From NCBI GenBank assembly GCA_002050035.1, contig MVCR01000001.1, positions 1-41,008 on the forward strand: 41,008 bases of DNA, written 5' to 3'. A program made the translations under genes and the position numbers. The number at the start of each line of letters is the position of its first letter. The stretch's first letter is position 1. Shown one piece after another: positions 30,398-38,063 of the stretch. The notes under the pieces were generated by a model that was not told the origin of the DNA, did no database searches, and saw only the letters and a program-made list of their open reading frames with translations. The DNA is from Planctomycetales bacterium 4484_113 (GTDB taxonomy: Bacteria > 4484-113).

Positions 30398-30754
30398 ATG
30401 TTTGGCATTGGCGAAGGCGAGCTGTGCGTCATCCTGCTGGCGGCAGTGATATTCCTCGGACCCAAGCGGCTGCCGGAAGTGGCGCGATGGCTGGCGAAGG
30501 CTTTCCACACGCTTCAAGGCTGGAAGGCGGAGTTCGACCGCCAGCTTACGGAGATTCGCCGCGAGATGGAATCGGATGCCAAGATGGAGCCTACCCGAAG
30601 GGATCAGCCGCACATGGATGATGCTGACCTTGACACGGATGCTGATGACTACCTTGCTGCAGCAGGTGAAGCCCAGGTCGATGCCACACCCGACTACAGC
30701 TACCGACAGGAGGTGCTCCCCGGAGTAGGTGACGAGGGAACAGATCGTGGATGA
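30398..30754 (+). CDS. TatA/TatB-family translocase protein (TatB-like)
   Basis: MFGIGEGELCVILLAAVIFLGPKRLPEVARWLAKAFHTLQGWKAEFDRQL. Confidence 0.85.
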   Translation: MFGIGEGELCVILLAAVIFLGPKRLPEVARWLAKAFHTLQGWKAEFDRQLTEIRREMESDAKMEPTRRDQPHMDDADLDTDADDYLAAAGEAQVDATPDYSYRQEVLPGVGDEGTDRG

Positions 30755-31463
30755 GCAGCACATGAGTTTCTGGCAACACGTGGGAGAGTTCAGGAACCGA
30801 TTGCTGCGAAGCATTGGCGTGCTCAGCATCACCGTGGCGGCGGCTTTCTACTTCCGCCAAGCGCTGTTCAGTTTCTTGCGTTGGCCTTTGCCGGCTGACT
30901 GCCAGCTCTACTACTTCGCAGTTACGGAGGCTTTTTTCTTCTACTTCAAGATTGCCCTGCTGGCGGGCATCGCGGCTGCATTCCCCTATATCCTGTACGA
31001 GCTATACGGGTTTTTTGCCCCGGCGCTGAAGCCAGAAGAGAAACGTCTTATCCTCCCGCTGCTGTCAGTAGTGATTCTACTCTTTGCCGCCGGCATCGCC
31101 TTTGTTTTCTTCGTGCTGATGCCGTACACGATCCGGTTCCTGCTTAGTTTCGGCGGCCAGCAGCTCACCAGCCTCCTGCAGGCGGACAGGTATTTTGGGT
31201 TTGTGCTTGGGCTGTGCATCGGCGGCGGACTGACCTTCGAGCTTCCGGTAGTACTGGCTGCCTCTGCCAAACTGGGCTGGGTAACAGCGCGTGGACTCTG
31301 GCGCAACTTCAACTATGCCATCATCATCATTCTTGTCGCCGCCGCAGTGCTCACACCAACTCCAAACGCGCTTCCGATGATCATCCTGTCGGCACCAATG
31401 ATCCTGCTGTATTTTCTCAGCATTGCCGTGGTTGCACGCATCAAGCCGTTGGGCAAGGCATAA
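30729..31463 (+). CDS. tatC: Sec-independent protein translocase TatC
   Basis: SFWQHVGEFRNRLLRSIGV; PYILYELYGFFAPALKPEEKRLILPL; six TM pattern; start could be GTG 30747 or ATG 30762. Confidence 0.9.
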   Translation: MTREQIVDEQHMSFWQHVGEFRNRLLRSIGVLSITVAAAFYFRQALFSFLRWPLPADCQLYYFAVTEAFFFYFKIALLAGIAAAFPYILYELYGFFAPALKPEEKRLILPLLSVVILLFAAGIAFVFFVLMPYTIRFLLSFGGQQLTSLLQADRYFGFVLGLCIGGGLTFELPVVLAASAKLGWVTARGLWRNFNYAIIIILVAAAVLTPTPNALPMIILSAPMILLYFLSIAVVARIKPLGKA

Positions 31464-33007: not shown

Positions 33008-34174
33008 ATGACTGTTTCCATTCCGGAGGGCCAGGTTTACCTGGATAACGCCTCCACGTCGTATCCGAAGCCAGAATGCGTCTGTACCGCGGTGGCTCAG
33101 GCTGTGCGTGAAGTCGGCCTGACCACCGGAAGAGGAAAGTACTTCTCCCGCATCAATCCCGATGAAGTAGTCAAGCGAACCAGAGCCAAGATAGCTCGCC
33201 TGCTCAATATCCCCGATCACCACCGCGTCATCTTTACCTACTCCGCAACTGACAGCATCAATACAGCGTTCTTCGGATTGCTTGATCGTGGAGACGAAGT
33301 ACTCATCTCGCCGCTAGAGCATCATGCAGTTACTCGTGCCCTGCATTATCTCGGCAAGGAGCGCGGCGTGGGGTTCAAGAAACTGACGGCGGACGCTGAT
33401 GGCAGGGTGATTCCGGAGCGCATCGCGGAAGCCGTGAGCGATGCGACGAAGCTCATCTGCGTCTCGCACATCAGCAACGTATCGGGGACGGTGCAGCCGA
33501 TTGCCGACATCGGCGCGGAGGCGAAGCGACTGGGCATTCCCTTTATGCTGGATGCGGCGCAATCGGCGGGCTCTCACGCTATTGACGTGCAGGCAGCCAA
33601 TGTGTCTATCCTCGCGGCGCCGGGGCACAAGTCGCTGCTGGGGCTTCCGGGAACGGGCATACTCTATCTGGAGAAAGAGATTTCCCCACAGCCGTTCCGC
33701 GTTGGAGGCACCGGCAGCTTCAGCGAGCTTTACGAGCTTCCGCCGGAGGTGCCCACGTTCTACGAATCGGGCACTCCCAATGTGTTAGGGATTATCGCGC
33801 TCGACGCTTCGGTGGACTTCATCCTTGAAACGGGCGTCGCCGAGATTGAGCGCGTCGGTCATATCAAGCAGCGGCAGATGCTGGAACACCTCGTGGCAAT
33901 GCCACAGGTGGAGCTAATGGGTCCCACAGACAGCGAGATGCGCGGCTGCCCCATTGCGTTCAACGTCAAGGGGCGGGAGCCCTCGGAGATTGGAACAATC
34001 CTTGGCGAGAAGTATCACATCGCACATCGCGCGGGGCTGCACTGCGCTCCGTCGGCCCACGAGTTCTTCGGCACTCTGGAGCGTGGCGGAGCGGTGCGTG
34101 TAAGCCCGGCGTTCCTCACTCCCGACGATGATGTGGACTACTTCTGCGATGTGATGGATGAGATCCTAGGATAG
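33008..34174 (+). CDS. Class V aminotransferase, cysteine desulfurase family
   Basis: VYLDNASTSYPKPECV, SHISNVSGTVQPI, DAAQSAGSHAIDVQ, APGHKSLLGLPGTGILYL, GLHCAPSAHEFFGTLERGGAVRVS. Confidence 0.9.
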   Translation: MTVSIPEGQVYLDNASTSYPKPECVCTAVAQAVREVGLTTGRGKYFSRINPDEVVKRTRAKIARLLNIPDHHRVIFTYSATDSINTAFFGLLDRGDEVLISPLEHHAVTRALHYLGKERGVGFKKLTADADGRVIPERIAEAVSDATKLICVSHISNVSGTVQPIADIGAEAKRLGIPFMLDAAQSAGSHAIDVQAANVSILAAPGHKSLLGLPGTGILYLEKEISPQPFRVGGTGSFSELYELPPEVPTFYESGTPNVLGIIALDASVDFILETGVAEIERVGHIKQRQMLEHLVAMPQVELMGPTDSEMRGCPIAFNVKGREPSEIGTILGEKYHIAHRAGLHCAPSAHEFFGTLERGGAVRVSPAFLTPDDDVDYFCDVMDEILG

Positions 34175-34215: not shown

Positions 34216-34665
34216 TTGACAATGGGGCCGGGGGTGCAATACAGGCTGATGGCGGGCACCGGGGAACAACCGATGGCTCCGAGAAACGTACCGACAGAGG
34301 ATGCTGCGGTGGCAGGGCGAGATGCGGGCGCGGCTGCCAAGACAAAGCCGGTCCAACCGCCCAGCGCGCACCGGATGCAAATGGTCATTCCCACGAAGGT
34401 ACTTGTGGATGCTCTGATTCGCGCACTCTGCGCACCCGAGGTGGTCAAGCTCTACACGGATTCGCTGGCGGACGCTGTCAAAGAGCGTCTTCGCGCTACT
34501 CAGGAATGGGATACCGCCGAGATGACCGCGAGGATTATGGAGCGTATCCAGCGAAAGGACTTCGCTGAAGAGGTGGCGCAGCAGATAATCGATTCAGCGG
34601 TGGGATTCAAGAATAGAGTCGCCAAGGGCGAAAAAGGAGGGAACGACGAAGAAGGACCGGAGTAA
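34216..34665 (+). CDS. Hypothetical protein upstream of the Cys-rich gene
   Basis: Open frame; C-terminal amphipathic helical segments; start uncertain (ATG 34249 possible). Confidence 0.5.
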   Translation: MTMGPGVQYRLMAGTGEQPMAPRNVPTEDAAVAGRDAGAAAKTKPVQPPSAHRMQMVIPTKVLVDALIRALCAPEVVKLYTDSLADAVKERLRATQEWDTAEMTARIMERIQRKDFAEEVAQQIIDSAVGFKNRVAKGEKGGNDEEGPE

Positions 34666-34687
34666 GATTTCGGAGATTGCCTCCAAT

Positions 34688-35461
34688 GTGCGGGGGAGGC
34701 TCAAAGAGAAGGGAGAGCTGGGGTTCGGCAATGCTCATCGCCGCACCCGCGCTTTGCGGCCGATAACGAATCCATTCTCGGACATTGGTGATGGCTTTGA
34801 CTGCGTGTCCGCATACAGTTCCGGGTGCACTCAGGAGAATCCATTCGACGGCACTGACTGTTTGGACAATCACGGATACGACATCTGCGTATGCCAGGGC
34901 GAAGCAGAGTTCGATGCGGAGGCCTGTCCCCAAGTGGAACCTGGTGTTGGAGTGATCTGCACGGTGGACTTCTCCTGCGCCAACTTCGTTTGTGATGAGT
35001 TCAGGTGCGTCGATGAAGCTTTTAGCTGCACCGAGTATTCCGGTGCCTGTCGCGACGGCGATTGCCCTAACGGGAAGGACGCAAGCTTTACGTGCCCACA
35101 CTACTTCTCCTGCAAGTCCATCGGAACTGAGACTGCGTATTAGTGCGGAGCACCGCTAAACTACACCTGCCAGCGGCCTGCGCAATTCGCGGGTCAAAGG
35201 TTCTATAGCTGTGCTGGCCAACTTGCCGAGTATGATTGCATGGCTCAGAAATTCTGGTGTGGAGACACATATACTTGCTGGCGCCCGTTCCACTGCGATA
35301 ACACTGTAAACTGCGGAGCGTGCGAGGTGCCATCAGTGCACGCTTGTGCTGCCAGCTTTGCCGGGACCTTCGTGTGCACATCGGAGGAATTCTACCCGGG
35401 TCAAGAGGAGCGTGAAAGTGAAGAACGCTTCACCTGCTTTGGTGAATTCGCAGAGGAGTAG
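34688..35461 (+). CDS. Cys-rich protein with repeated aromatic-x-Cys motifs, interrupted by an in-frame amber codon at 35141-35143
   Basis: ORF 34688-35143 and ORF 35240-35461 are in the same frame; the sequence between is open and Cys-rich; 27 Cys in total, 15 in [F/Y]-x-C. Confidence 0.65.
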
Positions 35462-35464
35462 TCC

Positions 35465-36349
35465 ATGAGCTACCCCGTTAAGACTAGAATCGGATTGATT
35501 CTGGCAGTTGCCTTCGCTGGAGTGGCATATCTGCCAACGAAAGGTCTAGCATCGCTAATCATGACTTCGTACGCTTCGCTACCAGACGCGCGAGTGTCCG
35601 TGGGGACGTTACAGACCAGAAGTACAGAGAAAGCCGCTCAAAAGAGAACGCTTCTCGAGGAGATACGGAACGCAAATGCGAACTGGCTTCTGCGCTGGGA
35701 AAGGGCACTCAACTACTCGGTCAGCTATCATTACGAGCGGATCCATATTGATGGCGACGGAGAAGAAGAAGCCGTATTCTCAGTTCCCCTGAAAGGACTC
35801 TACGATCGAGGTATCGATTTCCTTCCTGAAGGCCGACCTGCAGCGCGGCGACGGAGCTTCCCATCACCCATTGGGCAACTACGCGAGAGAATGGTCACCA
35901 AGATCCACCTGCAAACGCTCTCCCTCTTGGCAACGGACGTCCTTGTGGATGGGCCGTCTCTGCGAGTTTTAGGCGAGGATATGTGGATGCGCGAGACTTT
36001 TCTAGATGGACCTAAGGCTGTGCGGGTACTGGAGTTCTCCGATTACAACGGGGACTTCCATGCAAGGATGTTCAGCCAGGTGGATCACAAGGAAGAGTGG
36101 TATGACCCCGATGACCCGGCTGTCTGGTGGTATACAAGGGGTCCCGGTAGCCCAGACACTTACCTGGATTCGCGCCGAACCTGGAATGGCAGATTCATCC
36201 AGGGACTGCTCTTCGTTACTGAGACTTACGATTGGCGGGGAGAGTGGGTCTCGAGAATCAGGGATGTGAAAGTAGAGCGGCTTCCATACCTAGACTCGGA
36301 GTATGCGACTCGGATTAGCGTGCTCTATGGCGTGCCCTGGGCATTCTAG
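35465..36349 (+). CDS. Hypothetical exported protein
   Basis: Signal-like N-term MSYPVKTRIGLILAVAFAGVAYLPTKGLA; 3 nt after the Cys-rich gene stop. Confidence 0.6.
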   Translation: MSYPVKTRIGLILAVAFAGVAYLPTKGLASLIMTSYASLPDARVSVGTLQTRSTEKAAQKRTLLEEIRNANANWLLRWERALNYSVSYHYERIHIDGDGEEEAVFSVPLKGLYDRGIDFLPEGRPAARRRSFPSPIGQLRERMVTKIHLQTLSLLATDVLVDGPSLRVLGEDMWMRETFLDGPKAVRVLEFSDYNGDFHARMFSQVDHKEEWYDPDDPAVWWYTRGPGSPDTYLDSRRTWNGRFIQGLLFVTETYDWRGEWVSRIRDVKVERLPYLDSEYATRISVLYGVPWAF

Positions 36350-36351
36350 GA

Positions 36352-37101
36352 ATGCGCGTGAAGGAAACGAGCGAGAGCGCTGTCGGAGATGGAAGGACTC
36401 AACTAGCATCCGCACTTACCGCGAGCCTGATTGCGCGCTACTATTACCCTGTCGGGCACGTCGACCTCTTTATCACCGAGCGATGCAATCTTCGTTGTCC
36501 ATACTGCTTCGTGGAGAACAAGAAGGCGAAAGACATCAGTTTGGAAACGGCGTTCAATGCGATTGACTTCATCCTCAAGCACAGCGCCGAGGGCGCGAGC
36601 ATAGGGATTCTGCTCTTCGGCGGTGAGCCGTTCATCCGCTTCGATCTGATGAAGAGCATCACACTGTATGCGGTTGCGACGGCACAGCGGGAAGGAAGGT
36701 CGTTCTACTTCACGGTGACGACCAACGGAACACTGCTGGACCGGCAGAAGCTCGCTTTCTGCCGCGACTACGGCATCAAGTTCCTGCTGTCGTTAGACGG
36801 GGAACCTGAAAGCCACAACCTGAACCGTAAGTTCGCCAATGGTCGCGGGAGCTTCGAGGTCATTGCAGGTAAGATACCGCTGATGAAGTGCTACCAGCCC
36901 TGGCTCAGCGCTTGGGTGACACCCACGGCGGAGGCCATAGCGGGTGTTGTGAAAGACTCAGACCTATGCGCCGATTACATCATTCCTTCGGCGTTCAACC
37001 GCACAGTGGCAAAGCACGTGGCAACCTCGGTAGCCAAGGCTGCACACAAGACGGGTGTTGCTCGCCGAATGCCCAAGGGCACCAGCATCTATCACGTCTA
37101 G
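36352..37101 (+). CDS. Truncated radical SAM protein with a malic-enzyme-like C-terminal tail (chimeric ORF)
   Basis: DLFITERCNLRCPYCFVE (CxxxCxxC), LLFGGEPFI, TVTTNGTLLD, LLSLDGEPESHN; C-term DLCADYIIPSAFNRTVAKHVATSVAKAAHKTGVARR resembles malic-enzyme C-termini. Confidence 0.7.
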   Translation: MRVKETSESAVGDGRTQLASALTASLIARYYYPVGHVDLFITERCNLRCPYCFVENKKAKDISLETAFNAIDFILKHSAEGASIGILLFGGEPFIRFDLMKSITLYAVATAQREGRSFYFTVTTNGTLLDRQKLAFCRDYGIKFLLSLDGEPESHNLNRKFANGRGSFEVIAGKIPLMKCYQPWLSAWVTPTAEAIAGVVKDSDLCADYIIPSAFNRTVAKHVATSVAKAAHKTGVARRMPKGTSIYHV

Positions 37102-37109
37102 AAGAAGCG

Positions 37110-38063
37110 CTAATCCTCTGGTCTCGGCGGGCGGGCGTAGATACACCCCACATTGAGGTCGGCGTCCAGAGCTGGCTCATGGTAATCCAAGGCGGTGCGC
37201 ACATAGCTCACCTCGTGCCCCAGCACTGTGATCAGCGAAAGTCGTCCCCATTCTCCGGTCTCCTTGTACTCAGCCTTGATTGCTGAAGATGCCGCTTCAT
37301 CCTCTCCTTCAAGGTGAAGTGCAATGCTGCGGGCGCCATCGCCGGATTCAGTAATGGTCAGTGCAACCTTGACCTCTCCACTCACGCCCACTGGCTGGCC
37401 GTCTTCACCCCGATAATCGTAGTTGTAGCCGTACGCGAAGCTGTACTCGCCCTCCGCGAATGCCGGCATTTCCACCACAGTCGTAAACGCGCTGAAATCA
37501 GCTTCGATTGTTGACTCGACAGCGAATTCGGGTGGAACGTAATCAGGCGCCGCCTCGACGATGCGCCTCACCAACACCAAGCCATCCTCGCCGCGAATGT
37601 TCCGCATGACAATGATACCCTCCGGGTTAACCAGGAAAGTCGCTGGGATGGCGTGAACACCCCAGGCTTGAGCAAGCCGCGCCTTCCAGCCCCCGCCATC
37701 ACAGACTACAGGATAAGGGATGTCCTTATCAGCGATGAGTTTCTTCATTGCACCCAAGGTCCTCTCCGTATCGAGCGAGCAGGATATCATCCGGAACCGC
37801 GGATTGTCGAAGGACTTGAGGAAGGCTAGGACATGAGGCAGCTCATATACGCAGGGACCGCACCAGCTTGCCCAGAAATCCACCATCACGAACTTACCCT
37901 CGGCGTTCAGAGCTGCAAGGTCAACGAGATCACCATCAAGGTCGCTGCCGACAAACGCAGGAGCCCTAGCCCCTAGTGCAGTACCTACACTCCGCGCCTG
38001 CGCTGTTATACCCAAGAGCAATACAAGCACGACAGCAGCAATTGATGCACGATGAAGTCTCAC
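37110..38063 (-). CDS. Exported TlpA/AhpC-type thioredoxin-fold protein
   Basis: Signal peptide; FVMVDFWASWCGPCVYELPHVLAFL; WGVHAIPATFLVNPEGIIV. Confidence 0.85.
   Translation of the reverse strand: MRLHRASIAAVVLVLLLGITAQARSVGTALGARAPAFVGSDLDGDLVDLAALNAEGKFVMVDFWASWCGPCVYELPHVLAFLKSFDNPRFRMISCSLDTERTLGAMKKLIADKDIPYPVVCDGGGWKARLAQAWGVHAIPATFLVNPEGIIVMRNIRGEDGLVLVRRIVEAAPDYVPPEFAVESTIEADFSAFTTVVEMPAFAEGEYSFAYGYNYDYRGEDGQPVGVSGEVKVALTITESGDGARSIALHLEGEDEAASSAIKAEYKETGEWGRLSLITVLGHEVSYVRTALDYHEPALDADLNVGCIYARPPRPED

Follow-up and report, generated by a model that had tools for sequence, protein, structure and literature searches.

The window, a 41,008-nucleotide stretch of DNA that constitutes contig C14 of a 1.54 Mb, 77% complete MAG, carries what looks like a decaying copy of a cassette whose relatives pair a dedicated radical SAM (rSAM)/SPASM maturase with a precursor protein built on [F/Y/H]-x-Cys units. 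The product of these relatives is most likely a thioether between Cys and the aromatic residue, and we give this reading as a whole a probability of roughly 0.55. A broader proposal is more tentative, at slightly worse than even odds: that this is a new rSAM modification, which joins Cys sulfur to a Phe, Tyr, or His at position -2 (in Bacillota, at +4) up to about 60 times along an exported protein, yielding a multiply cross-linked scaffold in several phyla of bacteria and perhaps also in an archaeon. The proteins are absent from the family libraries and the literature that we searched and constitute a so far unnamed family. The literature search, partial in coverage, returned no description of the motif, of aromatic acceptors, or of the family, and an earlier notice of the clade is possible.

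The features of the window cassette are listed in Table 1. The frame at 34688-35461 has a single interruption, an in-frame TAG. Reassignment of this amber codon was rejected because the precursor gene and the exported-protein gene after it both end in TAG, which is therefore an ordinary stop here. Read through with the amber codon as X, the product contains 27 Cys, in agreement with a previous sequence-only reading, and 16 of them have Phe or Tyr at position -2; the 15 given in that reading is correct if the motif spanning the amber codon is omitted. Among 2000 shuffles of the protein, the mean was 3.4 motifs and the maximum was 10. Of the 11 Cys downstream of the amber codon, 9 are preceded by F/Y/H at -2 (binomial p 3e-6). 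The almost metrical spacing described earlier did not hold: Cys-Cys distances are mostly 5-12, with modes of 6 and 8, so that we rejected strict periodicity, and what stays constant is the local unit [F/Y/H]-x-C.

Table 1. Features of the cassette in the window.
Feature	Position	Strand	Basis or remark
Gene 1, small Cys-free helical leader-like protein, first in cassette	34216..34665	+	Profile of 7 such genes
Ribosome binding site of precursor gene, AAGGAGGG	34634..34641	+	Direct reading; start position of relatives equivalent
[F/Y/H]-x-Cys repeat precursor	34643..35461	+	27 Cys, 16 [FY]xC; family comparison
Helical leader region of precursor, TTKKDRSKISEIASNVRGRLKEKG...	34643..34780	+	Corresponds to leaders of L036, L039, and L042
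In-frame TAG of precursor	35141..35143	+	TAG is also the stop of the precursor and exported-protein genes
Gene 3, exported protein of unknown family	35465..36349	+	N-terminal hydrophobic segment by inspection
Truncated radical SAM maturase	36352..36957	+	CxxxCxxC kept, SPASM part absent
Unrelated tail fused to the rSAM, weakly malic enzyme-like	36958..37101	+	NF009501, E 2.5e-4, 19 bits

The precursor frame extends upstream of 34688 to at least 34643, directly after a strong ribosome binding site. In seven relatives, the precursor starts at the corresponding position and opens with a helical leader, and GTG 34688 therefore probably cuts the leader. By direct reading, no ordinary start codon (ATG, GTG, or TTG) occurs at normal distance 3' of the ribosome binding site. 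The rSAM gene and the exported protein that had been placed directly downstream are both present, but the former is two genes away, behind the exported protein, and truncated. It matches Pfam Radical_SAM (E 5e-14) and positions 5-170 of 330 of the PapB model NF047865, and it aligns with a profile of its clade over only the first ~202 of 392 positions before an unrelated tail begins. This tail is either a deletion fusion or an assembly join. No second copy of it exists elsewhere in the assembly, which leaves an assembly duplicate unsupported as its origin, and a chimeric join may still account for it. Given the missing start codon, the amber codon, and the truncated rSAM, the window copy looks decayed, or partly damaged in assembly, and it is probably inactive.

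Concerning the other genes of the cassette, a profile of seven gene 1 sequences, run against 12,517 ORFs, found extra copies directly 5' of the precursors in L037, L039, and L048 and weakly matched the leader of the L051 precursor. Gene 3 of the window is weakly similar to its positional counterpart in L036; it has no Pfam match, and a PDB profile search with it was empty. AlphaFold models of the repeat protein and of the exported protein, made separately, had a mean pLDDT of about 34. A cysteine-desulfurase-like aminotransferase (33008-34174) and a TlpA/ResA-like thioredoxin (37110-38063) flank the cassette, and neither was seen at other loci. Genes for TatA/B and TatC (30398-31463) lie 3 kb upstream, which is probably a coincidence, though related precursors have Tat-like signals.

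The same genome contains an intact second cassette on contig C49, comprising gene 1, a repeat protein, an exported protein, and a 400-aa rSAM/SPASM enzyme. At a third locus, on contig C40, a repeat protein of 762 aa carries 74 Cys, of which 53 have an aromatic at -2; downstream of it lie an exported protein and an rSAM gene cut by the contig end. Just before that end (L003/L037 end, G000:C40:20066-20276), the rSAM turns into unrelated sequence, probably an assembly artefact. Six further loci occur in two genomes of the window's class (G007 and G009). The same pairing of repeat protein and rSAM is found in named genomes of Armatimonadota (L048, L049), Sedimentisphaerales (L051), Poribacteria (L052), and Sumerlaeota (L053), in a Planctomycetota MAG (L058), in an archaeal MAG (L056) whose contig is short and could be misbinned, and in Bacillota, including Sporomusa, Heliophilum, and Pelotomaculum. 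Across the family, the repeat proteins span 75-760 aa. In the window's class, the cassette runs from gene 1 through the precursor and the exported protein to the rSAM; at the smallest loci (L056, L058), the precursor adjoins the rSAM without gene 1 or an exported protein. The repeat protein is the sole partner common to all small rSAM loci. As in RiPP systems, leader and core are encoded beside a peptide-modifying enzyme, and the smallest precursors have 75 and 102 aa. Inspection of the neighborhoods by eye revealed no protease gene common to the loci.

Most of these loci were found via the rSAM, and their co-occurrence is therefore only a partly independent test. In an anchor-free profile search of ten genomes of the class, repeat proteins appeared only at rSAM loci, bar one weak hit at the end of a G007 contig (L152); the search lacked the sensitivity to recover the window copy or L043. 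Apart from that hit, homologs without rSAM neighbors, which the earlier reading had named as evidence against itself, were thus not seen in these genomes. Nor did membership in a metallothionein, EGF-like, or spore-coat family emerge, since neither the halves of the window precursor nor the other precursors match Pfam or NCBIfam at cut-off. Single-sequence searches with the window protein and a 761-aa member returned only self-matches, the family being too divergent. The proposal that the neighboring rSAM acts on the aromatic-x-Cys protein gains comparative support from three loci in this genome, two relatives, several phyla, and one rSAM clade.

Two rSAM genes of relatives, L038 (G002:C66) and L039 (G009:C39), are conserved throughout, and each has one internal TAA; judging from these codons, decay of the system recurs in relatives. 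In G001 (L131, 6922-7965), a gene 3 homolog (45% to that of C49) lies beside dnaG with no clade rSAM, and its sister G002 has gene 3 and an rSAM at a dnaG-adjacent site. The nonsense codons in G002 and G009, together with the missing clade rSAM beside dnaG in G001, point to an accessory trait that would often be lost.

We counted residues around 406 Cys in 14 precursors, leaving the Bacillota branch for a separate count. F/Y/H occupies position -2 at 277 of these Cys (68%, against a background of 14%), namely Phe at 211, Tyr at 39, and His at 27, and the motif is far above chance in every precursor. Most precursors have 10-75 Cys. Asp/Glu has no fixed position (12% at +4 versus 14% background), and Asp shows a mild excess at -1 and -3. 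A Cys-x3-aromatic rule was rejected for the window's branch: the aromatic enrichment at +4 stems from hexad Cys spacing and falls to 1.1-fold where the next Cys is not at +6. The unit of the Bacillota branch (176 Cys), by contrast, is Cys-x3-[F/Y], with F/Y at +4 in 55% and D/E in 5%. With F/Y/H at -2 elsewhere and F/Y at +4 in Bacillota, Cys is paired with an aromatic at a fixed offset in each branch. The Bacillota precursors (L057, L059-L065, L067) have a weakly Sm/Hfq-like N-terminal domain followed by low-complexity repeats, such as CFERFGQP and CRERFGPPPP; the branch holds spore formers, and a link to spores is possible.

The best NCBIfam match of the enzymes is PapB (NF047865), with 247, 217, and 207 bits against a cut-off of 340, and their best solved relative is the ranthipeptide enzyme CteB (PDB 5wgg). 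In a tree of 84 rSAMs, the loci with clear repeat proteins all fall into one clade of 25 (support 99/94), separate from the clade with true PapA neighbors (L070, L075). Among its members, L055 is without a repeat ORF, the Cys-rich ORF at L050 is of another kind, and the L054 gene runs off its contig; a repeat protein is present at L045, the contig with the likely other half of that gene. Outside the clade, only one neighboring ORF has p < 1e-3, a 3-of-4 case (L107, p 9e-4) of the sort that chance would produce with this many tests. In the L075 enzyme, the equivalent of PapB Arg372 is residue 372, within a PCHRF motif. At this position, 23 of the 25 clade members have C-[AS]-K (CAR in L050, CSR in L053), and most families outside have HR, VQ, or IQ. 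In PapB, Arg372 is essential, and structural models place it near the Asp carboxylate (PMC9413430). The N-terminus before the cluster motif is about 36 aa in L036 versus about 115 in PapB and is so short that a PapB-like in-cis leader-binding domain seems absent in such enzymes. The rSAMs of L056 and L058 have lost several otherwise conserved Cys of the SPASM region, e.g., SACNALQIAESFRGGC, and may lack one auxiliary cluster.

The constant parts of the system are thus the protein-sized [F/Y/H]-x-Cys precursor and the dedicated maturase. We propose that a helical leader, perhaps aided by the leader-like gene 1 product, would guide the precursor to its maturase within the cytoplasm. In PapB, the Cys thiol sits on an auxiliary cluster, hydrogen is taken from the acceptor carbon, and the thioether is closed with a loss of 2 Da (PMC10470005, PMC9413430). 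By analogy, an auxiliary Fe-S cluster would hold the Cys thiolate while the 5'-deoxyadenosyl radical abstracts hydrogen from the aromatic two positions before it; thioethers between Cys and the aromatic would close small rings at many sites, each at a cost of 2 Da, and the stiffened product would move on to the cell envelope. We infer in this way that the precursor is the rSAM substrate, the aromatic the acceptor, the bond a thioether, and the envelope the final location. A thioether to the aromatic is the most likely bond because the aromatic is the only residue conserved with Cys. The Bacillota unit, with F/Y at +4, has the geometry of PapA with the aromatic replacing Asp, and counts in its favor. 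By inspection, L048, L049, and L052 have Tat-like N-termini, with a twin-arginine motif and a hydrophobic stretch (L052 scores below cut-off with the NCBIfam Tat model), which suggests Tat export following modification. The size, copy number, and export of the proteins would be consistent with a structural or protective role in the envelope.

Several observations count against an aromatic thioether. About a third of the Cys are without an aromatic, Lys in place of Arg372 could itself bind a carboxylate, neither a leader-binding domain nor a protease was identified, and the rSAM of the window is truncated. To our knowledge, acceptors adjoin a polar group, and an aromatic beta carbon in that role would be new. 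PapB left a substrate whose acceptor precedes Cys (DSANCA) unprocessed (PMC9413430), which argues against a thioether in which the aromatic comes first. The main rival is a three-residue cyclophane, in which a C-C bond would link the F/Y/H ring at i to the beta carbon of Cys at i+2 and leave the thiol free. An aromatic in first place, a partner at i+2, and the use of F, Y, and H all recall triceptide geometry (PMC11002830), and this arrangement is found at 68% of the Cys in the 14 precursors. Yet the closest families of the enzymes form thioethers (PapB, SCIFF, QhpD), and scores with the cyclophane families NF041707, TIGR04269, and TIGR04261 are far below cut-off; Cys is practically the sole residue fixed at i+2, which suggests that sulfur is involved; and the Bacillota unit is Cys-x3-[F/Y] rather than a three-residue one. 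We consider a cyclophane improbable, at about one chance in six.

Somewhat less probable still is a classical ranthipeptide, with Cys joined to Asp/Glu and the aromatic serving merely for recognition. PapB is the nearest enzyme family and accepts Cys-Xn-Asp with n of 0-6 (PMC9413430), and the cores are acidic, with the Asp enrichment noted above. Against this, Asp/Glu has no fixed position, not even at +4 in Bacillota, and Arg372 is replaced by Lys. The least probable reading, an unmodified Cys-rich metal-binding or disulfide scaffold beside an rSAM with another target, would fit the high Cys content, the export signals of some members, the spore formers of the Bacillota branch, and the lack of a maturation protease seen near the loci, but we doubt it strongly, as the precursor is the sole common partner at the smallest loci, the rSAM clade follows the motif across phyla, metal or disulfide binding needs no aromatic at exactly -2, and no known Cys-rich family was matched.

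Most characterized rSAM thioether substrates are short peptides in which the acceptor is Asp, Glu, Asn, or Thr. The family described here points to acceptors that are aromatic, to very long substrates modified at many sites, and to export of the modified product, and the Cys-aromatic link, if true, would represent a new type of protein cross-link. The family also provides a distinct enzyme clade with a simple SPASM-region signature, C-[AS]-K, together with small test systems of two genes and a sequence rule by which further members could be located.

Compared with known systems, the CXXX-repeat and Cys-every-fifth families (TIGR04115, NF038107) share, by name, regular Cys repeats beside an rSAM/SPASM enzyme, but our enzymes score far below their cut-offs and those names imply no aromatic rule. 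The triceptides made by 3-CyFE enzymes (XncB, OscB, YhhB, HaaB) also have an aromatic (W/F/Y/H) at i and its partner at i+2; here, the partner is Cys, and the two sets of enzymes lie apart within the SPASM group. QhpD (TIGR03906), the maturase of quinohemoprotein amine dehydrogenase, is likewise an rSAM/SPASM enzyme with a protein-sized substrate, into which it introduces several Cys thioethers with Asp/Glu as acceptors; scores here are 117-156 against a cut-off of 453, and no dehydrogenase subunit genes were seen at the loci. The SCIFF maturase CteB (TIGR03974), a thioether-forming SPASM enzyme, is the closest solved structure, but scores are 117-182 against a cut-off of 425, and the precursors, mostly with 10-75 Cys, differ from SCIFF peptides, which have six Cys in forty-five residues. 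The freyrasin system, PapA/PapB, shares a multi-Cys precursor adjoining an rSAM/SPASM enzyme, the best enzyme family match, and, with the Bacillota members, the Cys-x3-acceptor spacing. It differs in that the precursors reach 760 aa and mostly carry [F/Y/H]-x-Cys, an aromatic replacing Asp, and the enzymes form a separate clade with Lys for Arg372 and a short N-terminus; the enzymes score below the PapB cut-off, Cys-x3-Asp/Glu units do not emerge from the D/E counts at +4, and only L050 and L053 of the clade have Arg at position 372. Overall, these comparisons would class the repeat proteins as ranthipeptide-like rSAM substrates.
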